Shown piece after piece: positions 12,491-29,387 of a stretch of DNA of 31,250 nt (its first letter is position 1; each line of letters opens with the position of its first letter). The notes under the pieces are model-generated. The model had not been told where the DNA came from and did no database searches. It saw only the letters and a list, made by a program, of their open reading frames with translations. The stretch covers positions 1 to 31,250 of the IMG/VR virus record IMGVR_UViG_3300033149_001690; one strand, written 5' to 3'. A program made the translations under genes and the position numbers. The stretch is from a virus.

Positions 12491-12685
12491 ATGGAAAAGT
12501 ATGGATGTAATCGTGAATTGGACATGAAATTAAGAATTGATGAGTTGACAAAAGATATGTCAACCAAAACAGCCTCAGATAAATTAGCTGCTACGAGTGA
12601 GTTAGCAGGTTTGTTACATGCTTATACTTCTCTAAAGGCTAAAAAAAAGTCAGATGAAAGAATGGCAAAGAAACTTAAAGGTTAA
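12491..12685 (+). CDS. Small charged helical protein
   Basis: A 64-residue protein with strong ribosome site AAAGGAGA 6 nt before ATG. It is mostly helical and charged (MKLRIDELTKDMSTK, SLKAKKKSDERMAKKLKG) with a basic end. It is the last gene of the 1-12685 plus-strand array and its 3' end overlaps the convergent resolvase gene by 11 nt. No family recognised; a scaffold, chaperone or nucleic-acid-binding role is possible but unsupported. Confidence 0.55.
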   Translation: MEKYGCNRELDMKLRIDELTKDMSTKTASDKLAATSELAGLLHAYTSLKAKKKSDERMAKKLKG

Positions 12686-13226
12686 ACTTCCTAGTATATT
12701 TTTTCTTTTTTTTCTTTTTTGTTCCTATTTTTAGATTATAAATAACTTGAGCCTCTTCTCTAAATTGGTGTTCATCTGAAACATATCTATGAGCCAGTAT
12801 TGCCAAACTATATGAATCCGCTTTGTTATCATTTTTAAATACATGGTGGTATTTACGTTCTATGGCTTTCATGACCGTTTCTTTACTAGCATCCCCCATT
12901 CCAGATATAAATTTCTTTAAAGTTTTTGGGGGGATTTCTAAGATATTAGAAACCCCCCAATCGAATAGAGAATTAATTAGTACTCCACTTAATTGTCCTA
13001 AGGAGAAGAGCCTACCTTCTGATTTATAGGATCCACCTTCTATACAAACAACTTCTGGTTTTTCTGATAAACCATCAAGAATGAACTTGAAGTTATCTCT
13101 GATATAGAAGAGTTTGTCGAAGATAGTCTTTCCTTTTCCTTTTATAGAGAAGATGTTATAATTGTCAGGAGTTATAAGAACTGTTATTGCAGTTTCTGAA
13201 TAGCTTTGATCAATGCCAATTTTCAC
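12675..13226 (-). CDS. RuvC-like Holliday junction resolvase
   Basis: A 183-residue RNase H-fold nuclease. Catalytic acidic residues are visible in order: GIDQSY (Asp6), CIEGG (Glu63), and DNKADSYSLA (Asp133/Asp137). The IPPKTLKKFISGMGDASKE block is the conserved RuvC substrate loop. It would cut branched DNA before packaging. The start is GTG at 13226, with GGAGG 8 nt upstream; a TTG at 13241 would swallow the ribosome site. The tail is Lys-rich (seven Lys in a row, A-rich codons) and contains two A-AAA-AAG heptamers. Minus strand, unlike its plus-strand neighbours; its transcript must begin opposite the 13241-13600 gene or further upstream. Confidence 0.85.
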   Translation of the reverse strand: MKIGIDQSYSETAITVLITPDNYNIFSIKGKGKTIFDKLFYIRDNFKFILDGLSEKPEVVCIEGGSYKSEGRLFSLGQLSGVLINSLFDWGVSNILEIPPKTLKKFISGMGDASKETVMKAIERKYHHVFKNDNKADSYSLAILAHRYVSDEHQFREEAQVIYNLKIGTKKKKKKKYTRKFNL

Positions 13227-13228
13227 AA

Positions 13229-13239
13229 AAGGAGCCTCC
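13229..13239. promoter_or_regulatory. Back-to-back ribosome binding sites of two divergent genes
   Basis: AAGGAG (13229-13234) serves the plus-strand ATG at 13241 and the complement of CCTCC (13235-13239) gives GGAGG for the minus-strand GTG at 13226. The entire 14-nt gap between the two start codons is filled by the two sites, so neither promoter can lie in it. Confidence 0.8.
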
Positions 13240-13240
13240 A

Positions 13241-13600
13241 ATGTCCGTTTCTGTAACCCTACAACAAGATCGAGAAACTGTCAATAATAAATATAAAGTA
13301 ACTAATACAATTACAACTTCTAGTGGGATGGAGAAGGAAATATTTGTAAAACTTACTGAATCTCTTTATTACGATCATGTAGCAACAGTATCGGATATGA
13401 AAAGTTTAGGGACAGATCCTGACGCTGTGGGTGCAGGATATTTTAGAGATCTTGAATTCTATATTGAATTTGATGATGTATCTGTAGCAGATACCCACGC
13501 TGATGGGATCAAAGAACGATTACAAACTCTTGTTGATGATTATAATGCAGCAGTCAATGACTTTGAAGGATCCGAAGAAACTACTTTTGTATCTGTTTAA
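13241..13600 (+). CDS. Unknown protein, 119 residues
   Basis: Starts at ATG 13241 (MSVSVTLQQDRETVNN) with AAGGAG 6 nt upstream; extensions of the open frame upstream to 13187 lie opposite the resolvase gene and are not supported. The protein is mostly beta in its first half (NKYKVTNTITTSSGMEKEI) with a helical C-terminus (GIKERLQTLVDDYNAAVND). Acidic, no signal peptide, no membrane segment. It is the only plus-strand gene between two minus-strand genes: its 5' end abuts the resolvase start and its 3' end overlaps the next minus gene by 20 nt. Family not recognised; a small virion protein is possible. Confidence 0.65.
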   Translation: MSVSVTLQQDRETVNNKYKVTNTITTSSGMEKEIFVKLTESLYYDHVATVSDMKSLGTDPDAVGAGYFRDLEFYIEFDDVSVADTHADGIKERLQTLVDDYNAAVNDFEGSEETTFVSV

Positions 13601-15779: not shown

Positions 15780-17327
15780 ATGTCTTATGTTATTGGTTCA
15801 TATCGAAAATCACATCTTGCGGAGCGTCTTTTAAAATTAGACGGAGAACAGTTTTCTTTACATAATGGATATGATCTCTATCAAGCGATATATGATGGGG
15901 ATTACTCCATGTTTCTTTTAAAGAATGCTCGTCAAACTGGTAAAACTATTACAATTTCTCATTTTATTGGGTTAGATTCTCTCATTACTCCTAGCCATAA
16001 ATCACTATATATTTCTCCCTCAGAAGGGCAAACAACTCGTTTTTCACATACAAAATTAGGAAAAACAATACAAGGATCTCCTATTTTAAGAAAATTATTT
16101 ACAGGAAGTGGTACCAATAATGTTTTTCTAAAGGTAGCAAAAAACGGATCAGAAATAACTCTTTCTTACTGTAATGCTGACCCAGACCGCATTAGGGGGG
16201 TCACAGCATCCACTATATTTTATGATGAATGCCAAGATATGTCTCTCTTAGAAACTATGACAGTTGCAGGAGCGTGTTCTGATGCTGCCCAAGATCCTCG
16301 CTGGGTAATGTCTGGCACTCCCAAGACACTGGAAAACGGATTGGAAGATTATTGGCAAAGATCTTCTCAAACAGAAGCTTTGATTCGTTGTGATGGGTGT
16401 AAGAAATGGAATAAACCTTCGATTAGGAATATTGGAAAACATGGGTTTATATGTGCTAACTGTGGAAAACTTTTAAACGTTAGGGAATTTCAGTGGATCG
16501 ATTTTAATCCTACCTCTAGAATTAAAGGATTTCATATTCCACAAATCATTATTCCTAATCATACAGAGAACCCTAAGAAATGGGATATTTTATTAGATAG
16601 ATTTGAGAGTTGGCCATCCAACAAGTTTAATAATGAAATCATGGCTTTATCAGATTCCGTTGGAACTAGGTTGATTGAAAGATCTGATTTAGAAAAGTTA
16701 TGTGGGCAGTATGATATATCACGCATCCCTGACAAAAAATTACTTAAGGATGTTGAATTTGTAGTTGCTGGAATTGATTGGAGTGGAGGTGGAAAAACAG
16801 GCATATCTCGTACCGTTGTATCTATCTTTGGCGTGATTCCAAATATGAAGGTTAAGCTTTTATATTATAAAGTATACCAAGTAGAAGATCCTACAACTAG
16901 TTTAGATGATATTGCTGATGTTTTGAGTGCTTATAATGTTCGTCTTGTTATGGGAGATCATGGGGAGGGTGCTTTAGCTAATGGAATGTTGATGCATAAG
17001 CTTGGTAGACACCGCGTAGGGCAATTTCAATACGGAAGTTTTAACAAACCTGTGAGAGTTGACCCTATATCAGGCATATATCAACTGGATAAAACTACAG
17101 TTATAGATAACTACTTTAAATTTATAAAAGATGAAGCCGTTATCTTTCCAAACGCAGTAGATTCTAAGGTAGCTTTTGATGATATTATGAATGAATTTTC
17201 AGAAGTTACTACCATGGGGAAGAAGATATGGCTCCATTCTCCTAGTGTTTCAGATGACTCACTTCATTCTCAAATTGGTGGGTGGATCGCGTATAAGGTA
17301 CTTAAAAAAGATTTAAGTTTTTTTTAA
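15780..17327 (+). CDS. terL: Terminase large subunit (lambda GpA-like)
   Basis: A 515-residue packaging motor. ATPase half: Walker A NARQTGKT (49-56), Walker B TIFYDE (Asp149, Glu150), coupling motif MSGTP (177-181). Between motor and nuclease, a zinc-binding insert CDGC...CANC (Cys204, 207, 225, 228) of the kind found in GpA-type terminases. Nuclease half, RNase H-fold: GIDWSGGG (Asp333), MGDHGEG (Asp393), SDDSLHS (Asp492/493). It uses ATP to pump DNA into the head and cuts genome units. Start is ATG 1 nt after the upstream stop with a distant AGGAG. Its last codons form half of an AT-rich hairpin shared with the convergent glycosyltransferase gene. Confidence 0.93.
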   Translation: MSYVIGSYRKSHLAERLLKLDGEQFSLHNGYDLYQAIYDGDYSMFLLKNARQTGKTITISHFIGLDSLITPSHKSLYISPSEGQTTRFSHTKLGKTIQGSPILRKLFTGSGTNNVFLKVAKNGSEITLSYCNADPDRIRGVTASTIFYDECQDMSLLETMTVAGACSDAAQDPRWVMSGTPKTLENGLEDYWQRSSQTEALIRCDGCKKWNKPSIRNIGKHGFICANCGKLLNVREFQWIDFNPTSRIKGFHIPQIIIPNHTENPKKWDILLDRFESWPSNKFNNEIMALSDSVGTRLIERSDLEKLCGQYDISRIPDKKLLKDVEFVVAGIDWSGGGKTGISRTVVSIFGVIPNMKVKLLYYKVYQVEDPTTSLDDIADVLSAYNVRLVMGDHGEGALANGMLMHKLGRHRVGQFQYGSFNKPVRVDPISGIYQLDKTTVIDNYFKFIKDEAVIFPNAVDSKVAFDDIMNEFSEVTTMGKKIWLHSPSVSDDSLHSQIGGWIAYKVLKKDLSFF

Positions 17328-17331
17328 ATCT
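17304..17331 (-). terminator. Possible leftward terminator within the 3' end of terL
   Basis: Inverted repeat AGATTTAA (17309-17316) and TTAAATCT (17324-17331), 7-nt loop. Read on the minus strand it is followed by a T run (17308-17304), fitting termination of the minus-strand replication block. All but one pair per arm are A-T, so it is weak; the other direction lacks a T run. Confidence 0.4.
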
Positions 17332-17338
17332 AAATACC

Positions 17339-18205
17339 CTATCTCTCCAATATTTTTTTAAATCGATCTTTTGCTGTATTTAACAGATCCATATCTTTTA
17401 TTAATTTATATTGCATATTAATATGTTTCCTTCTGTTTGAAGGATTCTTTAAGAAATACGTTACTAGATCCCTCAATTCACTTTTATCCCCATACGTAAT
17501 TCCTTTATATAGATCTTCTATCTCGGCATTCTTCTCGGAGATAACAAATGCTTTGCTAGTAAGGTAGTCTGTATATTGAGCATTAGTATACCCAGCCTTA
17601 TTCATCTCAGGACGACTTCCGTGGATTATAATAGAAGTTTTTGAGGCTAACGATGGAATGTATTCGTAGTTTATGGAGTGTCCTGCCCAACATCGTTTAG
17701 CAGCCTCAGACCCCGAATATAACTCAAAGAAGCGTCCAAAGATCTTAAAGTTTAAGTTCAAATCAGAAACAATAGGGAGAATGTCTTCAACAATTTTACT
17801 TTGTCTTATATCCCCTACATATACAATATCAAATTGTTTTTTAGGAGAAGCTCTTTTTACTGGTTTCAGAAGAGGAAAATGTGGTATTACTTCCGCATCA
17901 ACCCCCAGAGCTTTTCTACAATTTTCTGAAGGAACAATGATTTTATCAAATTTTTTCAAAGAGTTAGCATTGTTTATATGTGTTTTATCAATTACATAAG
18001 CTATATTATATTTAGAGGAGTCGTATGTAGGCATATCATCATAAGTGTCATCCAAAGAAAGTCCAAGGATATGAAAACGGATGTCTGCTTTGACCTCATA
18101 TTCATATCCCAATAAATCCATCAATACAGCTAAATTGTCTATCATGTTGGATTCGTACCAATACTCGTAATCGTAACTTGACCCTATGCAATATGTGTTA
18201 TTCAT
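17339..18205 (-). CDS. Glycosyltransferase, GT-B/CgeB-like
   Basis: A 288-residue protein. A Rossmann-type C-terminal half shows FDIVYVGDIRQSKI (126-138), FKIFGRF, YEYIPSLASKTSIIIHGSRP and a helix followed by SKAFVISEKN, the layout of Glyco_trans_1_2 (CgeB-type) domains in which a sugar nucleotide is bound between two Rossmann folds. The N-terminal half is shorter than in full GT-B enzymes. Overlaps the polymerase stop by 8 nt, with GAGGAGG as ribosome site, so it is translated with the polymerase. Last gene of the minus-strand block in this window. Acceptor unknown; DNA or a surface glycan are both possible. Confidence 0.7.
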   Translation of the reverse strand: MNNTYCIGSSYDYEYWYESNMIDNLAVLMDLLGYEYEVKADIRFHILGLSLDDTYDDMPTYDSSKYNIAYVIDKTHINNANSLKKFDKIIVPSENCRKALGVDAEVIPHFPLLKPVKRASPKKQFDIVYVGDIRQSKIVEDILPIVSDLNLNFKIFGRFFELYSGSEAAKRCWAGHSINYEYIPSLASKTSIIIHGSRPEMNKAGYTNAQYTDYLTSKAFVISEKNAEIEDLYKGITYGDKSELRDLVTYFLKNPSNRRKHINMQYKLIKDMDLLNTAKDRFKKILER

Positions 18206-21179
18206 AATCCTCCTCAGTAAGTTTAGTCATTTCACCGTAGTTATCGCCCCATTCAACATCATATTCAAAAGGAACAGGAAGCCACGTGTATTTCTGTGCT
18301 ACATCTTCTACGATCATCTTATTTAAGTAAGGTTTAATCAATTTCAAATTCTTCTTCGGGAGTGACATAAGGATAGAATCGTGAACAGTTAATACAAGCC
18401 TACCTCCCAATTCTTCCTTTATATTCTTACCCATCGCAGCTAAGATCCTAACAACTAAATCACTGGCAATGTTCTGAACTCCAAAATTGATTGCTTGGCG
18501 ATAGGATCCACCTCTGTTGATTGAGTATCTTGGAAACCTTCTTTTTCGTTTGGTTAGAGATTGAACTTCACGATGTTTTTCTAAGTGCCTTCTAGTATCA
18601 TTCATATACTTTTTGATCTTCGGAAAGGTCTTGAAATACATGTCGATGATTTGTTGAGCTTCAGTTTCCGAGCATCCTAGATCCCTTGCTAAACCATACT
18701 TAGTGATTCCGTAAACCAAACCAAATGTAACAGATTTTGTTCTTTTACGTAGTTTTACAAATGCCATCTGTAACTCAGTAGGAATCTTAACTTCATTTGC
18801 TTCAGAGATTAACTTAAACAATTCTTCTTCAGTGTACTGCGGGTATTGAGCTTTCCAGACTTTTGCTGCAACGTAAGCATGCATGTCAAAGTCTTTTAAG
18901 AGTGCGTCAATCAAACCTTCTTCTTGTGCATATGCTAACAAACATCTGATCTCAGCAGCCTTGATATCAACATTAACAAGAACATGATCCTCAAAATCAG
19001 CGATGATACATTTCTTTAAGTTCTTTCCACCACCAAACAAAGCGATGTTCTGGAGGTTTAAAGATGACGAGCTGAGTCGTCCAGTCTTAGTCCCGTTAAT
19101 ATGAAAATTTGATCTAAGTCTTCCATCAGGCTCAGAGAACCTCTTGAAGTTTTTGAGGGTGGTATTAAGAGCTTTATTAACATCCCTGAAAGTTAAAAGA
19201 ACACTGATGAACCCAAGAAGATTGTTCTCACGATATCCCCTCATGAAATCAATGATTTTCTTTTCGTCTTTAACGATGTCTGGTTTTATCTCTTCAATGA
19301 TATCTTTGGCGTATTTAATCAGGTTTTCCCTAGAGGTGCTGATTTGTTTATCTTCAGTTAAAACCCACTTATCTTTTGAAAGTCCATATTTGGAACAAAG
19401 GATATATGCAACTTGTTGTGGAGAACTAGCTTTAAAGTCCTTCTTCTCAGACATTGATACTAATTTATAATTCAATTCATTGAAGTCATTTTGTAATTCT
19501 GCAGTTATATTTTTTAGATATTCATGATCTAATTTTGCACCAACAAATTCAATTTCTGTTAAAGCTCTTGCTACAGGAATCTGTTGTAGACGCATGATAC
19601 TAAACATATCTGGGTCATCGTCATGAATATTCTTCTGTTGCGCTATAGCTATCCTACGAGTTATATCACTATCCATGCTATTATAAACTTCTAAATCTCT
19701 GGGATCGTAATCCTCGTAATCAGACTTAGAGGTTTCAATTTCAAATCCTGATAGATCTGGTTTCGTAGGTTTCTTAAATCCTTTTGTAGGACGTTTTGGT
19801 TTTGTTGATCTAACTTCTTTCGTAAGTTTAGTTCCCTTTGGATACTTTATAATCCAACGTTCAAGTTCTTGGTTATAAAGCCTTTTGTTTAATTCATAAT
19901 TTACATTCTTGTTATCATATACAGTAAGTTCTTCTTGGTGAGACATCATGGCATCTTGGTATGCTTGGTTATCAATTGTAGTTTTTTTTAAAACACTTTC
20001 GTCTTCCTCCTCTATATCATTAGATTGTAGATCATCTTTTTTAGAAAACTTTTTAAGAGCAAGTTTTTTATAATTCTCATATGCTGGGAAATACTTTCCT
20101 GCCAAAAACTCAAGATTATAAAAACCTTTCATGTTTTCATTTAGGATGTGTTCTCCAAACAAAGTATCCCAGCAGATGTTATTAACTTCAAAACCATACT
20201 TATATTTAAGCCATTTAAAATCAAAAGGAGTATTGTGTATAACCTTCTTTGCATTTGATCTTAAGACATCTGCTATTGCATCCTTTATATCTTCCCAAGC
20301 ATACGGAGAATGTCTGGATTCACACCAGATAGTACATGATTCTTCCTCTGCCCAAGAAAAAGCAATTGAAATCATCTTAACATCGGGATACCAAGCATAT
20401 TTACTATTCGTCTCAATATCCAACCCCAGTAGATCATTGTTCTCACCAGAGACTGCTGGGAGAATTTTGTTATAGATGATATCTTTAACTTCTTCTGCTG
20501 TCTTTGGAAAGATGTATTTTGAGATATTGATGTCTTGCGCTAATGAAGGTTCCATTTCAGTTTTAAAGATGTGTTGGATCGCGTTTTCTACTGCTAAAGA
20601 GCTGATATAATAATCATTATCATTCTTTTTTATCTTTTCAGTTTCCATGATTGGAAGAGTGTTATATATTTGATTACCTATTTTTACATTGATGCTACGA
20701 GCAACAACATGGGTATATCTTTGATACATTATATAAATAGATTTAGCGGCAGATGCCCCTACAGGGATTATAACTTTTGGTTTAAGCCTTTCAATGTTTG
20801 AAAACAATACATCATGGCACGTATACACCATCTTAGAACTTGGTTTAAATTTATTGTTTTGTGTTTTATAAAGGGAAGAAGGAACTTTCTCATCCACTAC
20901 ACAGGATACAGTATATATAAAGTCATATGTTATATCAAAGTTTACCTGAGAATAGATCCCTTTTAAGTGTTGTATATAATTAAACTTTGTCTCATCTATC
21001 ATTCTCCGCAGAGCATCTAAATCCTTATCAAAATAAGTATCTTGATGGTTCTTGGAATGGATTATAAATTCAGAAGGACTGTCTAATATAAAAAGAATGT
21101 CTACTGGTTTATAAGAAGGAACTTTATAACAACGATTAAATTCTTTTAAAGAACATTTTATACATGATGAATGGTTCAT
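18198..21179 (-). CDS. DNA polymerase, family A, with N-terminal UDG-like domain
   Basis: A 993-residue replicative polymerase. Residues 1-160 resemble a family 4 uracil-DNA glycosylase: Cys6-x2-Cys9, DILFILDSPS, Cys93, and Cys121 leading to RLKPKVIIPVGASAA; the four Cys match the Fe-S ligands, but the second catalytic motif lacks the usual His. Proofreading exonuclease about 250-345: GLDIETN and HNTPFDFKWL; its third motif (VYNSMDSDITRRI) is displaced to 498-510 by a charged insert of about 120 residues. Polymerase 540-985: motif A VDIKAAEIR (Asp738), motif B KSVTFGLVYG (815-824, Phe819 at the sugar-selectivity site), motif C VHDS (932-935) where Ser replaces the usual Glu. Start ATG with GGAGG. 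Flanked by glycosyltransferases. Confidence 0.95.
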   Translation of the reverse strand: MNHSSCIKCSLKEFNRCYKVPSYKPVDILFILDSPSEFIIHSKNHQDTYFDKDLDALRRMIDETKFNYIQHLKGIYSQVNFDITYDFIYTVSCVVDEKVPSSLYKTQNNKFKPSSKMVYTCHDVLFSNIERLKPKVIIPVGASAAKSIYIMYQRYTHVVARSINVKIGNQIYNTLPIMETEKIKKNDNDYYISSLAVENAIQHIFKTEMEPSLAQDINISKYIFPKTAEEVKDIIYNKILPAVSGENNDLLGLDIETNSKYAWYPDVKMISIAFSWAEEESCTIWCESRHSPYAWEDIKDAIADVLRSNAKKVIHNTPFDFKWLKYKYGFEVNNICWDTLFGEHILNENMKGFYNLEFLAGKYFPAYENYKKLALKKFSKKDDLQSNDIEEEDESVLKKTTIDNQAYQDAMMSHQEELTVYDNKNVNYELNKRLYNQELERWIIKYPKGTKLTKEVRSTKPKRPTKGFKKPTKPDLSGFEIETSKSDYEDYDPRDLEVYNSMDSDITRRIAIAQQKNIHDDDPDMFSIMRLQQIPVARALTEIEFVGAKLDHEYLKNITAELQNDFNELNYKLVSMSEKKDFKASSPQQVAYILCSKYGLSKDKWVLTEDKQISTSRENLIKYAKDIIEEIKPDIVKDEKKIIDFMRGYRENNLLGFISVLLTFRDVNKALNTTLKNFKRFSEPDGRLRSNFHINGTKTGRLSSSSLNLQNIALFGGGKNLKKCIIADFEDHVLVNVDIKAAEIRCLLAYAQEEGLIDALLKDFDMHAYVAAKVWKAQYPQYTEEELFKLISEANEVKIPTELQMAFVKLRKRTKSVTFGLVYGITKYGLARDLGCSETEAQQIIDMYFKTFPKIKKYMNDTRRHLEKHREVQSLTKRKRRFPRYSINRGGSYRQAINFGVQNIASDLVVRILAAMGKNIKEELGGRLVLTVHDSILMSLPKKNLKLIKPYLNKMIVEDVAQKYTWLPVPFEYDVEWGDNYGEMTKLTEEDYE

Positions 21180-21197
21180 TTAACCTCCAATAAATAT

Positions 21198-21226
21198 AAA
21201 GTAAAATAAATCTACTTAGATGTCAA
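21198..21226 (-). promoter_or_regulatory. Possible promoter for DNA polymerase
   Basis: Minus strand: perfect TTGACA (21226-21221) inside the last codons of the upstream glycosyltransferase, 17-nt spacer, weak -10 TACTTT (21203-21198). It lies 19 nt before the polymerase ATG. Confidence 0.35.
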
Positions 21227-22396
21227 GTTTTTATATTGATTATTATAAAATTTTACAGAAAAATCTAGTGTTGGGATGTCATCTCGATGTTCCAGTATTT
21301 TGGTATGAGCTTCTAAAATTGATTTAGGATTGTCCCTAAGTTCTTTGATCTTCAAAAGGATCTCATCTGTATTTGCATTTTCTGAATATAAAAATCCAAG
21401 ATTCTCAAGACGTTCTTTTAAAGCTCCTTTACTAGAGCTTAGTATTGGAATCCCCATGAAGAGAAATTCTGATGCTAGTATTGAAAAGGTTTCTCTACCA
21501 AGTGTAGGAAGCCATGCTAAATTTATCTTACCAATTTTTTCAGGAGATGTTTCAATGTTTTTAAATTTGGATAGATAATTCTTCAATTCATCTTCTAAGG
21601 TTTCTGTTAAAATATGGAATTTTACATCTGGTAATAACTCTTCACACGCTTTTAAAACACTCATGATTCGTAGCACACCTTTAATGTGCATGAAATAACT
21701 ACGTATTCCAATGTTAAGTCCTTCTACTTTGGATATATCTAAAGAAGGGGTAGGGGAAATTCCTATAGGAGCTATTTCTAATTTATCATTGAGTTCTGGA
21801 TATATCTTGAAATAATCGGTACGCAAGCTTTTTGAGGGAACGAATATCTTATCTATTGTTCTTAAAAGATGAGTCATCGCTTCTCTACGAAGAAAAACAT
21901 ATTCCCCTTTTATACCTGCTTTGTATTCTTGACACTTGATACATTCTTCTATTTGTTTTGGAACATTGCATGTCACATATTTATCTGTTTCAAGGAAGTG
22001 TTCTTGGCAAATGAAAAAATAATCATGTATGGTCAGAATTTGTTTGATCTTTTTTGATTTAGCAATGATAGTATATTCAATAGGATTATGGATTAGATGT
22101 TGATAATGCACGACATCAATTTTATATGTGTCTAGGAGTTCAGAGAAGGAAGACAACTTCTTGTATTTAGAAATGGCTGTAATCTTCTCAATCAATTCAT
22201 TCCTAAATTTATGAATCTTATGCAAATAGACTACATCACTATTTTTCATGTCAGGATATAAGATATAGCAGGTATGCTCGGTGCTTAAAGAATGGGATAG
22301 TTGGTATGTGAAGGCTTCGCATCCGCCAGAAATAACCTTGCTCTTACTCTCTGGAACATCATGTCCTAGATTATGTACAACATATAGGATATTCAT
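21212..22396 (-). CDS. Glycosyltransferase family 4-like
   Basis: A 394-residue GT-B enzyme. N-terminal Rossmann domain: MNILYVVHNLG, ISGGCEAFTYQLS (the GG loop), VVHYQHL, TIHDYFFIC (122-130) followed by a Cys cluster (Cys143, 152, 155) that recurs in GT4 enzymes with a CxxC finger. C-terminal domain: LNIGIRSYFMHIKGV and the donor-site segment LPTLGRETFSILASEF (Glu302), then MGIPILSSSKGALKE. Transfers a sugar from a nucleotide donor. Starts on a TAATG overlap with the preceding transferase, so it is co-translated with it. The acceptor cannot be read. Confidence 0.82.
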   Translation of the reverse strand: MNILYVVHNLGHDVPESKSKVISGGCEAFTYQLSHSLSTEHTCYILYPDMKNSDVVYLHKIHKFRNELIEKITAISKYKKLSSFSELLDTYKIDVVHYQHLIHNPIEYTIIAKSKKIKQILTIHDYFFICQEHFLETDKYVTCNVPKQIEECIKCQEYKAGIKGEYVFLRREAMTHLLRTIDKIFVPSKSLRTDYFKIYPELNDKLEIAPIGISPTPSLDISKVEGLNIGIRSYFMHIKGVLRIMSVLKACEELLPDVKFHILTETLEDELKNYLSKFKNIETSPEKIGKINLAWLPTLGRETFSILASEFLFMGIPILSSSKGALKERLENLGFLYSENANTDEILLKIKELRDNPKSILEAHTKILEHRDDIPTLDFSVKFYNNQYKNLTSK

Positions 22397-24111
22397 TATA
22401 ACTCTCCTTTTGCCTTCAGTTGTTTAAGAAATTCAGGAATCACTTTTGTGTAATGATAATTTTCTTTAAACTTATTATAAGCATTTATACCTAGTTTGAA
22501 GGTATCTTCATTGTATTTTTTTATCAAGGTTACAATTACAGGTAGTATGTTTTGATACTTAACCATGTAAAAATCTTCTGTAGATTTAAATACTTCTGGG
22601 TATTGTATGCTTTCAGATACAACAACTGCTTTATTCATAAATAAGTCATTAAACAATCTAGGTTTTTCAAAATACTCCATGTTACTGTAATGTACATTTA
22701 AACAGATTTTAGTTTTAGAAACCAAATCTGCTTTAACATCACTTTTAAAAGCATAAGGTAAAGGATTAGGTGTAATGACAAGTCCTTCATTCTTCAATGT
22801 TTGTAGAAGATGTTCTCGTCTATCATTACCACTTCCGTTGAACATTACATCATATGGTTTATCAAGAGTATGATTGATTCCGAAATCATTATTTGGATGA
22901 TACATGCAGTCAAGTTTTATAACCCTGAATCCTAGATTCTCTACATCCTTTATTTTACTATCGGATTCGCATACAACATAATCATAAAACATCCCATAAC
23001 GAGCTACTTGAGATATCCTCATAGATGACCAAGCAGAATTGTAATTTGTAATAGGAGTTTGTTCCAGATTATATGCTAGTAGCTTTGTACCATTTGTTAA
23101 TTTAGATATAAATGTATTTTGTTCTTGTTCTATATATGTATGTGGATTTATACATAAAATGTGAGTATATTCTCCCGAAGCAGCTACTTGATTTATTTCA
23201 TGAATTCCATACATCGCTCGTAAATCAGCTTGTACCCCACAATCATTTAAAGATTTAGCAATTGTCTGTGCTACGTCAACAACAGGTTGAAACAGAGTAC
23301 GTGAATAGGTAATACAAAACTTCCAATTCCTAGCAAAAAGTAATTCATCAGGTATTTCAGATTCTGGTAAATCAATTTTTGAAATGGTGTCATCCAAGAT
23401 CTTGTACATTTGTTGAACAATCTTAGGATCCTTTTTAGCTGTAAGATGATAACCATCATTTCTTCTAAGATATTTAAAAACCATTTTTTCTATATGTATA
23501 AATCTATACATATTTATTAAACGTAACTGCCATTCGAAATCAGCAGATACAACCATATCCTCTTTAAACATAGGAGTATCTTTTTCCAATGTAAAAATAA
23601 AAGAACCCATGGGAATGATCCCTTTACTTTTGATATGTCTTCTTTTTGAATATGGAGACATTCTAAAAGTTTTTCTTAGTTTCCATTCATCCCCTTCAGG
23701 GGAGAATAGAGAAGAATCTCCATATACAAAAGCGTATCGTTTATCTACAACTGCTCGATATAATTCAAGAACTGAGATATTATCATAGAACTCATCATCA
23801 TCATCTAAAAACATTACGTACTTACCTGTAACCATTTTTAACGCTTTGTTTCGTAAAGGGTAGGGTCCTGAAATATCATCCTTGTTATATACATAAACAA
23901 CTTTTATTTTATCATTTAAAGACATGTCGTCATTAATTCTTTTTATAGTAGGCGCAACAACCTTTTCATATATATCATCTTCTGATTTATCATCCATGAC
24001 AATTATTTCTATTTTAAAGTCTTCTGTTCTTTGTGATAATACTGAATCAAGAGCATTCTGCAATAAAGATGCTCTATCTTTTGTTGGAATGATGATGGAA
24101 ATAGTGTTCAT
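22396..24111 (-). CDS. Two-domain glycosyltransferase: GT2 (GT-A) fused to CgeB-like GT-B
   Basis: A 571-residue fusion. Residues 1-240 are a GT2 domain: SIIIPTKDRASLLQNALDS, EIIVMDDKSED, then MFLDDDDEF (metal-binding Asp103-106) and ADFEWQLRLI (191-200). Residues about 255-571 are a second, CgeB-type transferase domain: ILCINPHTYIE, VMFNGSGNDRREHLLQTL, ICLNVHYSNMEYFEKPRLF and NKAVVVSESIQYPEVF. One protein could add two sugars in sequence. It is joined to its neighbours by TAATG overlaps on both sides. Sits in the middle of the transferase trio between primase-helicase and polymerase. Confidence 0.85.
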   Translation of the reverse strand: MNTISIIIPTKDRASLLQNALDSVLSQRTEDFKIEIIVMDDKSEDDIYEKVVAPTIKRINDDMSLNDKIKVVYVYNKDDISGPYPLRNKALKMVTGKYVMFLDDDDEFYDNISVLELYRAVVDKRYAFVYGDSSLFSPEGDEWKLRKTFRMSPYSKRRHIKSKGIIPMGSFIFTLEKDTPMFKEDMVVSADFEWQLRLINMYRFIHIEKMVFKYLRRNDGYHLTAKKDPKIVQQMYKILDDTISKIDLPESEIPDELLFARNWKFCITYSRTLFQPVVDVAQTIAKSLNDCGVQADLRAMYGIHEINQVAASGEYTHILCINPHTYIEQEQNTFISKLTNGTKLLAYNLEQTPITNYNSAWSSMRISQVARYGMFYDYVVCESDSKIKDVENLGFRVIKLDCMYHPNNDFGINHTLDKPYDVMFNGSGNDRREHLLQTLKNEGLVITPNPLPYAFKSDVKADLVSKTKICLNVHYSNMEYFEKPRLFNDLFMNKAVVVSESIQYPEVFKSTEDFYMVKYQNILPVIVTLIKKYNEDTFKLGINAYNKFKENYHYTKVIPEFLKQLKAKGEL

Positions 24112-24770
24112 TATACGTTACTCCTTTCAAAGTCTTTAAGTCCATATCCATAAATTCCCAGATGTGTACATGTATGTTCTGTATCTACATACACCTTATA
24201 CCCCCTACTTTGTGCTTTATTTAAAAAATATACATCCTCACTTTGAAAAATATTATCATCATAAGAAGATATAAATTTAAAATAAGGTTCTTTCATCACT
24301 TCAAATACTTCCCGCTTAACCAATAGACAACCAGTTCCAGTTGCATCAACTTCTACAAGTCCCTTTCCCAAACCACCAACCCAGAAACCATTTTTCTTTT
24401 CTTCTTCTGGTGCATCGTGTTTCCATAAAATTGGTTCGTAAGGAGGACATTTCTTAGTACATAATAATCCTATAATAGACAAATCATAACTAACCATTAT
24501 ATCTAAGAAATTCTTATCATCTGGAATTACATCTGTATCTATAAACAAACAATGTGTAACAGCCGGATTCTTTAAAGATAATGATACTAGTTGAGTTCTA
24601 TTTTTATCAATTGGGAGGACATTACTTCTCATTAAAGTGTATGCATATTGACTCCTCAATCCCAAAAGAAAATCAACAAAATTAGAATTCATATACTCAA
24701 AAGTATGTGTTAGTAATATCGCAATATGGATTTTTGTTTGTTGTTGCACTTCTTTTATTTGATATTCCAT
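24111..24770 (-). CDS. GT-A-fold glycosyltransferase
   Basis: A 219-residue GT-A enzyme: FVDFLLGLRSQYAYTLMRS, DKNRTQLVSLSLKNP, HCLFIDTDVIPD (metal-binding Asp78-Thr-Asp80), VDATGTGCLLVKREVF, then QSEDVYFLNKAQSRGY (176-191) and a His203 in CTHLG that may complete the metal site. This compact pattern is common among phage-encoded transferases. Starts 4 nt after the primase-helicase stop with GAGGAG; ends on a TAATG overlap with the 571-residue fusion. Acceptor not known. Confidence 0.82.
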   Translation of the reverse strand: MEYQIKEVQQQTKIHIAILLTHTFEYMNSNFVDFLLGLRSQYAYTLMRSNVLPIDKNRTQLVSLSLKNPAVTHCLFIDTDVIPDDKNFLDIMVSYDLSIIGLLCTKKCPPYEPILWKHDAPEEEKKNGFWVGGLGKGLVEVDATGTGCLLVKREVFEVMKEPYFKFISSYDDNIFQSEDVYFLNKAQSRGYKVYVDTEHTCTHLGIYGYGLKDFERSNV

Positions 24771-24773
24771 CTC

Positions 24774-27700
24774 TTACTCCTCAAAAGTATTATACGAACT
24801 AGATGTATTACATACCTTGCTTTCATTTAAAATCTCCTCAACGAGTTCTTCTTCCCCATAACCAATATTACCGTCACGTACAATATCTGTTACTTCTATT
24901 ACAGTTAACTCATGGAATTTAAGATTTTCTCGTAATACATATCTCCAATTTTTAAAAGTTTTAATCTCCTTTTCCTTCAAAACTTTATCATCCCTCTCAG
25001 CTACTTCTTTTAATTTTGATACAGGGTACGTACAAAATTCGGACTTTCTTTTAAATAAATCCTTAGATTCTTCCCATGAAATGATTAGATAATATCTTCT
25101 CTTACTTATATTTTTATGACTGGTTTCATAAATCTTAACTCCATTAATGGAATAATCAACCAGTTGCTCCCGTAAAGTAGGATTTTGTAGAATTCCAATT
25201 AAATTATAGTCTCTTTGAAGTTTATCTTCTGAGGAGGATCTACCTAATTTGAAGACTTGAGAATGTAATAACTCTGTCCAAAGCTGGGGGGTATGCCCAA
25301 TAGAACTAATGATCTTTAACTCTTGCCCACGATCTTCAATATATCCTTTCATATAATCAATACCTGCCTCTAAGGAATTATGTACTGCTGATATAACCGC
25401 TGCTAAAGGAAATAATTGACTGAGTGTCCTATAAGGTACTCCCATATAAGTAGAGTCACCAGAACTTGTATGTTCTTTTATTTCTTTGTAATACTTCAAA
25501 ATCCTATGTGAATACTTAAACAAACCTATTGTAAGGGATTTCTTTAAATGCTTCACTTCTTTTTTTGTCATGATTTTACGTATCAACACCGAAGTATCTT
25601 GAAACCCTTGTTTCTTTTGTGTTGTGATATTTATAAATCTGTTTACATCCACAGGGTTTGTTAATGGACGAACCCCCGCAATTATGATTGGAATATCAAT
25701 TTCAAATTCTTTAGACTCACCACTAGGAGTACCTTTTATTACTTTAGTTCCCGTATCTGCACTTCGAATGGTTTTAAGAATAGTCTTAACAGTTCTTGTT
25801 TGGGGATCATTACCACCTGAATCCTCGAATTCATCTAAACAACATGCTAAATTATTCCCCTGAATGTTCTGTCTCATCCCTGCTTCTGTATAATCTTGAA
25901 TAGAAGTTACAGTGTCTATTAAGTGAATATTGGCATCTGTCTTTCCGCCAAAGATTCCAAAAGTATATCTGCTTTTACCACTACTTGTTTCCCCAGATAC
26001 ATTTAAAAATACATTCTTTTCAAAGATAGGGAATACAGGAGTATATAAACACATTGCCGCCGCAGTAAAATAATCTGCATTATATTTAAAATTAAAGCAG
26101 GTTTTCATTATGTTATACACACTATCCCACATTTGATCAATAGATAAAACATTACTATTCATATCCTTCTCAGACTGAGCACACGGCGTCCAATTATCTA
26201 TATTCCCTTTACCACTTAGTAGGAAATAATAATCATTATAAATAGGACGCTCTATTTGTGTCCATAGGATTTCCTCTTTATTATCAACGAATTGACCATA
26301 ATAAAGATTCTTACCATTTAATAGATACCACTCCTTCTTATCTTCATGTGGGTGTTTCAACCAAAAAATACCATTCTTTTTACCTTCGGAAACTTTAATT
26401 TCAACTTTACCTTTCATATCATCCCTCAATACTATATTAAAACATTTTTCTAAATCTTTCTCTATATCATAAACTGGTCGTTCTATTTCCAGATCACCTC
26501 TTACAAAGTATTGCATTTCATAGGGGACTCCAATAGAGTTATGAATCCAAGTATAAAAGGATCCTACTTCTTTACACATCACAGAAGCAGACTCCTTCAT
26601 CCTAGCAATACTTAATTTACTTTCTGATTTAACCGCTTTGTTCCACAAAACCAACTCAGCATCGCTACCCCTAGCATTGGTTAATGTCCCTAAAACGTCA
26701 TACTTCTTCTCAAACAATAGACTCAACTTTTTTAAAAATGTTTTATGGTCTTCGTGTTTAGGTTTTATTAAAGTTATAATATCATTCTTATCTAATTTAA
26801 ATTTATCACTAACCTTTGGAATTAAGGTTGAAGATAAAATTGTGTCTGTTATAGCTTGTATTTCCCCTGCGATATATCTAACTTTATCTGCATCTGGTAT
26901 TTTCCTCCCTTTATCCTCTTCTCTTTCAATTAAATTATTAATTTTTTTAAGGATAAACTCTTCTTCATTATAATAGTTAGAAATATCTGTAAAATGTTTA
27001 TATATATCTAAAAAAGAATCTTCGTTCTTATGAATAATATCATCGGGATCATCACCAATAAGATCTAATCCCCACTTATACACATAAGGTTTAACCACTC
27101 CTTCATTATTTTTTATAATTTTGTAAGCAAGAGCTTCACCTTTAGCTTCTGGCGAATCCATTAAGAGGTGTGCATATTTAATCCCAAGAGACTCTATTCC
27201 ATTTAAATTACAACTGGCTCCACCACCAATTGCTAAAAAAATATCTTTTGTTAAGCCTTCATTGATTTGATTTGTAACAATAGATGCCCAATCAAATTCA
27301 CCCTCAACAATATAAGCAACATCACTTTTACCCAACACATCTTTATAATAATCAAGACCAAACACAGCAGGATCTTCGTCATATGATTTTAAAAGAGGGT
27401 GGTGTAGGATCACAATTGTTTTATCTCGTTCTACACCTTCTACGAAATTGCCTTCTATATCCTTAATCTTACGGATTCTGAAATAAGCTACTCTATCAAT
27501 AGAGTACCGATATGTAAAAACAAGCTGTCCTATGTTTCTAACATCTTTGATGGGATCAAGTAACTTTACAACATCCAACCTGTCTTTAGGATCTGGTATA
27601 TACCTCTCTAAGATCCTTTCAGAAGGAACTACTCCCATTGGTAACGCATCAGGTATAAACGATATTTTCCGAACTTCTTCGATATATTTTACAGCAGGTT

Positions 27701-28172
27701 GGTATTCTTCAAAATCAGGGTCATCTTTATTATAATACGCATCTATTAATACAGAATGACAGGTGTTATGAAAAATTTCACATACTTTATTTGCTTCTAC
27801 TTTATCTTCGTATTCTTTGACATTTTCTTTATTAAATAATTTTAATTGTTTAGCCGAGTTTAATTCAAGAGCAGCTTTATAATAATTCTGTTTAGATAAT
27901 TTAGCATACAATGCTACGGGATCATTTTCATATTTATTACAACTTGCTCCGTAGCACTTGGCATATCTTTTATCAATATAAATGAAAAAAGAAGGAGAGT
28001 GATCATCTGTATGATATGGGCACATTCCTTTTATTGTATTACCAGAAGCCTCCCATCGATTCTCAGGGTAATGCATTGTACAATAATGCATCCAGTCATC
28101 GACTTGGAGGGCTTCCCAAACAATTTTTCTAATTCTTTTTTTATTTAATATCTTAGAAGTCTGTCTTGGCAT
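24774..28172 (-). CDS. Primase-helicase (CHC2 zinc finger, TOPRIM, ATPase)
   Basis: A 1132-residue replication protein. N-terminal zinc motif: Cys51, His54, Cys73, Cys78. TOPRIM region: YIVEGEFDWAS (Glu290) and LLMDSPEAKGE (Asp339), where the usual Asp-x-Asp is degenerate. Residues 400-690 are a long region I cannot assign. ATPase: Walker A SGETSSGKS (726-734) followed by FGIFGG, Walker B LACCLDEFED (Asp780, Glu781), NRFINIT near 844; this resembles DUF927-type phage ATPases more than DnaB. It would prime and unwind DNA at the fork. GGGGAGAAAC precedes the ATG. Followed 3 nt later by a glycosyltransferase. Confidence 0.88.
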   Translation of the reverse strand: MPRQTSKILNKKRIRKIVWEALQVDDWMHYCTMHYPENRWEASGNTIKGMCPYHTDDHSPSFFIYIDKRYAKCYGASCNKYENDPVALYAKLSKQNYYKAALELNSAKQLKLFNKENVKEYEDKVEANKVCEIFHNTCHSVLIDAYYNKDDPDFEEYQPAVKYIEEVRKISFIPDALPMGVVPSERILERYIPDPKDRLDVVKLLDPIKDVRNIGQLVFTYRYSIDRVAYFRIRKIKDIEGNFVEGVERDKTIVILHHPLLKSYDEDPAVFGLDYYKDVLGKSDVAYIVEGEFDWASIVTNQINEGLTKDIFLAIGGGASCNLNGIESLGIKYAHLLMDSPEAKGEALAYKIIKNNEGVVKPYVYKWGLDLIGDDPDDIIHKNEDSFLDIYKHFTDISNYYNEEEFILKKINNLIEREEDKGRKIPDADKVRYIAGEIQAITDTILSSTLIPKVSDKFKLDKNDIITLIKPKHEDHKTFLKKLSLLFEKKYDVLGTLTNARGSDAELVLWNKAVKSESKLSIARMKESASVMCKEVGSFYTWIHNSIGVPYEMQYFVRGDLEIERPVYDIEKDLEKCFNIVLRDDMKGKVEIKVSEGKKNGIFWLKHPHEDKKEWYLLNGKNLYYGQFVDNKEEILWTQIERPIYNDYYFLLSGKGNIDNWTPCAQSEKDMNSNVLSIDQMWDSVYNIMKTCFNFKYNADYFTAAAMCLYTPVFPIFEKNVFLNVSGETSSGKSRYTFGIFGGKTDANIHLIDTVTSIQDYTEAGMRQNIQGNNLACCLDEFEDSGGNDPQTRTVKTILKTIRSADTGTKVIKGTPSGESKEFEIDIPIIIAGVRPLTNPVDVNRFINITTQKKQGFQDTSVLIRKIMTKKEVKHLKKSLTIGLFKYSHRILKYYKEIKEHTSSGDSTYMGVPYRTLSQLFPLAAVISAVHNSLEAGIDYMKGYIEDRGQELKIISSIGHTPQLWTELLHSQVFKLGRSSSEDKLQRDYNLIGILQNPTLREQLVDYSINGVKIYETSHKNISKRRYYLIISWEESKDLFKRKSEFCTYPVSKLKEVAERDDKVLKEKEIKTFKNWRYVLRENLKFHELTVIEVTDIVRDGNIGYGEEELVEEILNESKVCNTSSSYNTFEE

Positions 28173-28322: not shown

Positions 28323-29387
28323 TTATTCTTCGTCCTCGACACCCCCGAAGTCCTTCTTCTTATGATCATCCGGTACTTCGGTTGTTTTTGCTTCGGCATC
28401 AACAACTTCTTTATAATCTACTACTTTAATCCTACTTTGAAAGTTATCGAGTTGATGAGAAATATATTTAATAGCCCATACTCTGAAGATCAGAGCATAT
28501 AATGCATCCAATTTAGTCAACATATCTTTGGTTTGATCTGCGAGAACAACTGCAGATACAATATCCCCATTTTTATTCTCAACTGGAGATCCCGATATCT
28601 TGAGCCAGCTACTCAAATATGCTGGATCAAAATGATATACGGATACATCAGGCATTGCTTCCATGGTTTCAAGTTTTGCATTTCGGTACATTTTACTAAA
28701 GGTTCTAAACCTCTGTCCTGTGTTAAATCGTGAATCTAGGTCAAATTTTTGTAATTGAATTTCATATAGTTTATTGAAGTCTGGTGTTACACACACAAAG
28801 TTTTGCATATCAGTACATAGAGGACGAGCATTCATGTTGGGGTCATATTCACCCTCACCGTTAAATCCTCTTTGGTTGAAGACACATCCGTTACATTCTC
28901 TAATTACTGGATCTGTATCAGCATCTTTTTTATAGATACCTCTAATACAATCAACAGTACTACAGAGTGAAAATTTCTTCTCTCCTGTATTAGATCCATA
29001 AGGTGGCCAATAAATTTTTGTTGCATAGTTTGCAATTGGTAGTAGGGTCATTTCTTCTGCTGGTTCTGCGTCCTCACCTTTTCTAAACAATCCAAGCAAG
29101 AACTTAGGTTCTTTTGGATTCATTTTACGAATGATTTGAAGACGTTCTGGACTCCATCTACTTCCTGCTTTCAATTCCATATAAGTGGCTTGGAAATACT
29201 CAACTATTTCCTTTGCTTTGTTTTTATCAGGAATTACCATCAAGAGTTTTCCTATATCAGGATTATCCTGAACAACCTCAAGCCCTTTAATTAGGTCTTC
29301 TTCAGATACAGGCTCACCAATCATTTCGCAAATTTTTGCTAGATCAACTTCTTCTTTTACTGCTACTTCTTTAGATTTTTCTGTCAT
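28323..29387 (-). CDS. Cys-rich protein with acidic tail, candidate single-stranded DNA-binding protein
   Basis: A 354-residue protein. The centre holds six Cys (142, 147, 165, 168, 191, 199), including CNGC, suggesting a zinc ribbon. The end is acidic (KKKDFGGVEDEE), the type of tail with which single-stranded DNA-binding proteins recruit partners. It lies between the recombination nuclease and the primase-helicase, has its own near-consensus promoter, the ribosome site AAAAGGAGAAAC, and a strong terminator, so it is made in quantity as a separate unit. This profile fits a phage SSB such as T4 gp32, which also uses zinc and an acidic tail, but sequence similarity is not visible, so the role is inferred. 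Confidence 0.65.
   Translation of the reverse strand: MTEKSKEVAVKEEVDLAKICEMIGEPVSEEDLIKGLEVVQDNPDIGKLLMVIPDKNKAKEIVEYFQATYMELKAGSRWSPERLQIIRKMNPKEPKFLLGLFRKGEDAEPAEEMTLLPIANYATKIYWPPYGSNTGEKKFSLCSTVDCIRGIYKKDADTDPVIRECNGCVFNQRGFNGEGEYDPNMNARPLCTDMQNFVCVTPDFNKLYEIQLQKFDLDSRFNTGQRFRTFSKMYRNAKLETMEAMPDVSVYHFDPAYLSSWLKISGSPVENKNGDIVSAVVLADQTKDMLTKLDALYALIFRVWAIKYISHQLDNFQSRIKVVDYKEVVDAEAKTTEVPDDHKKKDFGGVEDEE

Follow-up and report, generated by a model that had tools for sequence, protein, structure and literature searches.

Related systems

UDG-like domains of the same kind as the one described here are known from the DNA polymerases of phages SPO1 and Shbh1 (Herelleviridae), for which the fusion has been published and a suggested role in processivity is cited (PMC5135824); the preliminary description of this locus had named an SPO1-type precedent, and that precedent is sound. 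In these phages, as in the polymerase reported here, a UDG-like domain, an exonuclease and a family A polymerase share one chain, and the uracil-binding Asn is lost. However, the Herelleviridae members SBSphiC and those of Enterococcus and Staphylococcus retain few or none of the cysteines that are kept here, and they differ in lineage and synteny. Because the cysteines are mostly lost in the SPO1-type polymerases examined, these offer no close match for the Fe-S feature.

The polymerases of phages BSP7, Youna2 and LysYB1 carry a fused domain that has all four cysteines, as does the one reported here. Among isolates, residues 1-207 find their best match in BSP7 (E = 4e-6); the N-termini of Bacillus phage BSP7 and its relatives span E values of 4e-6 to 4e-5, and that of Weizmannia phage Youna2 matches at 1e-3. 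In contrast to our locus, BSP7, Youna2 and LysYB1 retain HPQ or HPD at the His motif, and BSP7 and Youna2 have 7-deazaguanine (que) genes and a polymerase encoded in two ORFs. In both phages the two polA ORFs (BSP7, L010 3971-6874; Youna2, L011 3986-7255) are several hundred bases apart, representing either an intron or a split enzyme.

Among glycosylases, the family 4 UDGs (Sulfolobus tokodaii, 4zbx/4zby; Thermus UDGa, 1ui0) share the whole-domain fold, the four Cys columns and the order of motifs with the domain described here. They differ in that our domain is fused to a polymerase, has replacements at the motif 1 Glu-Gly, the Asn and the His, and scores far under the family cut-offs. UdgX of Mycobacterium smegmatis likewise has the fold (VIA Z about 18) and the Fe-S cysteines in common with it, whereas the KRRIH loop, GEQPG and HPS of UdgX are missing. 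The PDB entry 9qhs, a putative DNA-directed DNA polymerase I of 1142 aa, has an N-terminal UDG-like region by sequence profile, the match beginning at residue 9, past the position of the CxxC pair.

A precedent for a UDG acting as a processivity partner is D4 of vaccinia virus (D4/A20; PMC11142717). The E9-A20-D4 polymerase holoenzyme offers an analogy: its D4 is a UDG that has been taken over for viral replication, where it belongs to a processivity factor. Unlike our domain, D4 belongs to family 1, has no Fe-S cluster, forms a separate subunit and works with a family B polymerase. Both the fusion of SPO1 type and the idea of a role in processivity have been published; the new elements here are how large the lineage is, the uncoupling of the cysteines from the catalytic residues, and the coexistence of the fused domain with an intact UDG.

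Architecture of the polymerase gene

The DNA analysed (hereafter the window) is a virus record of 31,250 bases from IMG/VR. Its polA gene occupies the ORF noted earlier, and lies on the minus strand with its ATG at 21179. The gene and its domains are as follows.

18198..21179, minus strand: polA, UDG-like domain, 3'-5' exonuclease and family A DNA polymerase, 993 aa (PF00476, PF01612, AF2)
21184..21188, minus strand: Shine-Dalgarno sequence GGAGG, 5' of the polA ATG
20553..21179, minus strand: family 4 UDG-like, Fe-S-type domain, residues 1-209 (AF2, Foldseek, VIA)
20058..20441, minus strand: 3'-5' exonuclease domain, residues 247-374, with D254, E256 and D320 kept (PF01612)
18231..19523, minus strand: family A polymerase domain, residues 553-983, with D738 and D934 kept (PF00476)

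Both downstream domains score over their Pfam cut-offs (PF00476, E = 7.7e-69, 232.9 bits; PF01612, E = 6.8e-10, 39.5 bits), and all five catalytic acids are invariant in an alignment of 62 relatives. The full-length model (AF2; pLDDT 87.4, pTM 0.83) matches Bacillus Pol I with a VIA Z of 36, and only Klenow-type entries appear among the best 50 matches listed in a full-length structure search. The product is thus a family A DNA polymerase with a 3'-5' exonuclease, and its three domains in one chain follow the SPO1-type UDG-exo-PolA architecture.

Fold of the N-terminal domain

The predicted structure of the N-terminal domain (AF2; pLDDT 87.2, pTM 0.79) has a UDG fold, to which family 4 UDG and UdgX come closest among solved structures. 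The best solved match is the family 4 enzyme 4zby (Foldseek E = 1.6e-9; VIA Z 18.5 over 178 aligned residues at 2.8 A), while other UDG classes give VIA Z values of 14.1 (family 5) and about 13 (TDG). The RLKPKVIIPVGASAA strand-helix pointed out previously is present, as a predicted strand at residues 136-140 and a helix at 142-147. Existing profiles recognise the domain weakly. PF03167 matches with an E value of 5e-5, just under its cut-off, the family 4 profile TIGR00758 matches with an E value of 6.5e-5 and 22.7 bits against a cut-off of 125.3, and the UdgX profile TIGR03914 reaches 17.4 bits against 189.95; the KRRIH R-loop of UdgX was not found in the window polA protein. A profile built from 75 related N-termini finds the solved family 4 UDGs with an E value of 3.7e-44 and 9qhs with 7.6e-17. 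Taken together, the UDG profile, family-profile and fold matches indicate a resemblance beyond chance.

The preliminary description had proposed a replicative polymerase with a family 4 UDG-like, Fe-S-type N-terminal domain, to be checked by structure prediction and a profile search. The proposal is borne out by the fold, which is closest to family 4, and by the Cys columns described below. In the profile search, PF03167 and TIGR00758 are both matched, with scores under their cut-offs.

Cysteines and catalytic pocket

Four cysteines, listed earlier as residues 6, 9, 93 and 121, are found at exactly these positions.

21153..21164, minus strand: C6 and C9, CxxC pair of predicted Fe-S ligands (Cys in 47/47 and 47/48 of the window clade)
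20901..20903, minus strand: C93, third predicted Fe-S ligand (Cys in 41/48 of the window clade)
20817..20819, minus strand: C121, fourth predicted Fe-S ligand (Cys in 47/48 of the window clade)

All four fall in the Fe-S ligand columns of family 4, as positions in the sequence alignment. Judging from the known ligands with which they align, they would be expected to cluster in space, and a [4Fe-4S]-type cluster is predicted for the window polymerase. Among the 48 window-clade members with usable N-termini the median pairwise identity of the domain is 23%, and conservation reaches 90% or more in just 6 of its 175 columns, three of which are those of C6, C9 and C121. C93 has been lost in one sublineage. 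This loss, together with that in the Herelleviridae, indicates that some polymerases of this type can do without the cluster.

The pocket shows a different pattern. In Tth UDGa it is formed by E41, G42, E47, F54, N80 and H155; the N80A substitution reduces k2/Km over 40-fold, and with H155S k2 falls to 7.2e-5 per s, against 2.3e-1 per s before (PMC5387724). The aligned window residues are D33, S34, I39, Y49, Y89 and E179, of which I39 and Y49 (the E47 and F54 equivalents) are less sure since they depend on alignment within a loop. Three replacements concern defining motifs.

21075..21083, minus strand: D33-S34-P35, replaces motif 1 E41-G42-P (alignment; Tth roles from PMC5387724)
20913..20915, minus strand: Y89, replaces Tth UDGa N80, the Asn that binds uracil (42/48 clade members have Tyr)
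20637..20645, minus strand: E179-T180-E181, found where Tth UDGa has the catalytic HPS motif with H155 (alignment)

Where family 4 has GE(A/G)PG at motif 1, the window has L-D33-S34-P35-S36, and the HPS-type segment has no His, so that both the DSP loop and the missing His reported from the first reading are confirmed. The N80 column, occupied by Y89 in the window, holds Asn in all intact domains. From these replacements, catalytic loss in the fused domain is very likely. The accompanying suggestion of a domain that may bind bases without excising them probably describes its actual state. The replacements are also regular: in the window clade the H155 column is Ser in 38/48 members and His in one, the F54 column is F or W in 42/48, and the E41 column is E or D in 39/48. 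The stacking aromatic and the acidic positions are thus largely kept, and a repurposed pocket would also fit this pattern.

Distribution among phage polymerases

Relatives came from alignment-based searches, a scan with the single sequence having given none. A set of 91 non-redundant N-termini from phage polymerases includes 70 with all four cysteines. In 48 of these 70 the Asn is missing together with the His, while 15 retain the motif 1 Glu or Gln together with Asn and His (16 if motif 1 is waived). The Cys-poor sequences L063, L101, L119 and L143 end at contig ends and provide no evidence of loss. A quick tree built on the polymerase domain places the window in a starred group of 50 sequences, none of which is intact, although the nature of this tree and the long window branch leave the exact sister of the window polymerase unsure. 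By alignment, a domain with its cysteines kept and its catalytic residues lost is the rule in a large phage lineage, and no quirk of the window contig.

When 25 large contigs of relatives were searched for UDGs, seven proved to carry separate UDG genes of 188-219 aa. Five of these (L193-L197) are family 4 enzymes with four Cys and the motif 1 Glu, Asn and His all present; the other two (L198 and L199) are degenerate but keep the cysteines. In the contigs that bear an intact standalone UDG, the fused domain is without the Asn/His set. It is therefore unlikely that the fused domain is the uracil-repair enzyme of those phages.

Gene neighbourhood

Two neighbouring genes are conserved in position.

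24774..28172, minus strand: primase-helicase, upstream replication gene (CHC2 zinc finger, phrog primase, synteny)
15780..17327, plus strand: large terminase subunit, converging on polA from downstream (69/69 relatives keep it)

The terminase gene is convergent with polA and less than 3 kb away in 69/69 relatives, and the primase-helicase directly adjoins polA, with no insert, in 68/69. This gene order (primase-helicase, polA, convergent terminase) is the mark of a large lineage of environmental phages (window 15780-28172; L013-L019, L093-L158), one member contig of which lies within an Archaeoglobales MAG (L165). In the window, three glycosyltransferase genes (21212-24770) lie between the primase-helicase and polA and one (17339-18205) follows polA. 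These genes are without homologues at the loci of the relatives, and a search of viral contigs gave no relative of the GT2 gene. In the 25 large relative contigs, where records may be incomplete, neither the GT2 and GT4 families (positive controls worked) nor QueD were found. Thymidylate-synthase homologues occur in just 3 of 50 relatives, with the same reservation as to completeness, and no hydroxymethylase was seen in the window. Since the relatives have no such glycosyltransferases and the gap is closed there, those of the window are a local insertion, and the UDG-like domain is independent of them. A bacterial-type beta clamp was likewise not found in the 25 contigs (83-191 kb; controls positive, records possibly incomplete).

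The only other large insertion at the primase-helicase/polA site is in the relative L102 (5534-9501), and consists of an 871-aa unknown ORF with Prok-JAB and ThiF (E1-like) genes, possibly a ubiquitin-like conjugation cassette. Elsewhere in the window, positions 28323-29387 encode a replication-operon protein of 354 aa that matches nothing in Pfam or PHROG. Positions 12675-13241 (minus strand) weakly resemble a RuvC-like resolvase (E = 0.008), and eight of the relative loci carry homologues.

Possible functions of the fused domain

The reading that we favour, with a probability of roughly 0.55, is that the fused domain is a built-in DNA-binding or processivity module that does not excise bases and is braced by an Fe-S cluster. 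The cluster-braced fold would keep DNA, either duplex or template, close to the sites of the polymerase and the exonuclease, a role similar to that of vaccinia D4, which serves its polymerase within a processivity factor. With the excision residues lost and the cysteines kept, the domain probably helps to hold DNA, not to repair it, and near-invariant cysteines in a domain of ~23% identity, alongside separate intact UDGs, suggest a structural or DNA-binding (processivity) role. The fold, the Cys conservation, the catalytic loss and the intact exonuclease and polymerase motifs all count in favour of such a module, as do the precedents of D4/A20 and SPO1/Shbh1. The lack of a bacterial-type beta clamp in the 25 contigs also counts for it; however, a clamp of another, unknown family could exist, and a beta clamp adjoins the polymerase of Vibrio phage MAR10, so that a domain of this type can coexist with one. 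The conserved Tyr and Ser swaps in the pocket also count against the module, and would suit a repurposed base reader as well. Such a non-excising pocket would accept a flipped base from the template in front of the polymerase, be it uracil, a modified base or a lesion, and would signal a pause, much as archaeal family B polymerases pause at template uracil. That the pocket has been exchanged in a conserved manner, without erosion, and that the whole catalytic set survives in some polymerase-fused relatives (15-16/91) both speak for a reader. Yet the Asn and His that contact uracil are gone, the Tyr at the Asn position should fill the pocket, modification genes do not co-occur, and E179 and Y49 of the window differ from the clade consensus, so that we regard this reading as rather unlikely.

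Other roles seem less probable still. Redox tuning has been argued for other Fe-S replication proteins, and a cluster whose oxidation state tunes the DNA affinity of the polymerase would agree with the cysteines being the most conserved feature of a fast-changing domain; but conservation of this kind is equally expected if the cluster is purely structural, one sublineage does without C93, and a redox switch is accordingly considered improbable. The preliminary description had linked the domain to modified template bases through the neighbouring glycosyltransferases, and four such genes do flank polA in the same operon. A domain adapted to glycosylated bases is nevertheless very improbable, and the link is rejected by synteny and family searches: the genes are specific to this contig, whereas the domain is present in nearly all relatives, including large contigs without GT2, GT4 or QueD, and the window has no visible hydroxymethylase. 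Least probable of all is an active uracil-DNA glycosylase that repairs the template ahead of synthesis. The UDG fold, the Fe-S cysteines and the fused relatives with an intact catalytic set would permit it, but the window has none of the key residues, falls about 100 bits short of the TIGR00758 cut-off, and would block its own fork by excising template bases during synthesis; moreover, relatives with a dead fused domain also have a separate intact UDG.

A more elaborate picture, which we put forward as tentative and on balance doubtful, would combine several of these elements. In a large environmental phage lineage, a decommissioned Fe-S glycosylase may have become a permanent part of the replicative polymerase. 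Its pocket, remodelled with E/D, F/W, Tyr and Ser where Glu, Phe, Asn and His once stood, would recognise a base or hold on to DNA, perhaps with redox control, and repair of the same genome would fall to a separate, active UDG.

Significance

The UDG-like domains of phage polymerases are present in annotation without explanation. A lineage in which the cysteines are kept and the chemistry is lost makes the question of why replicases carry repair domains testable, with one truncation and Cys mutants. If it serves as a DNA-binding or processivity module, the fused domain would add an independently arisen case parallel to that of vaccinia D4.
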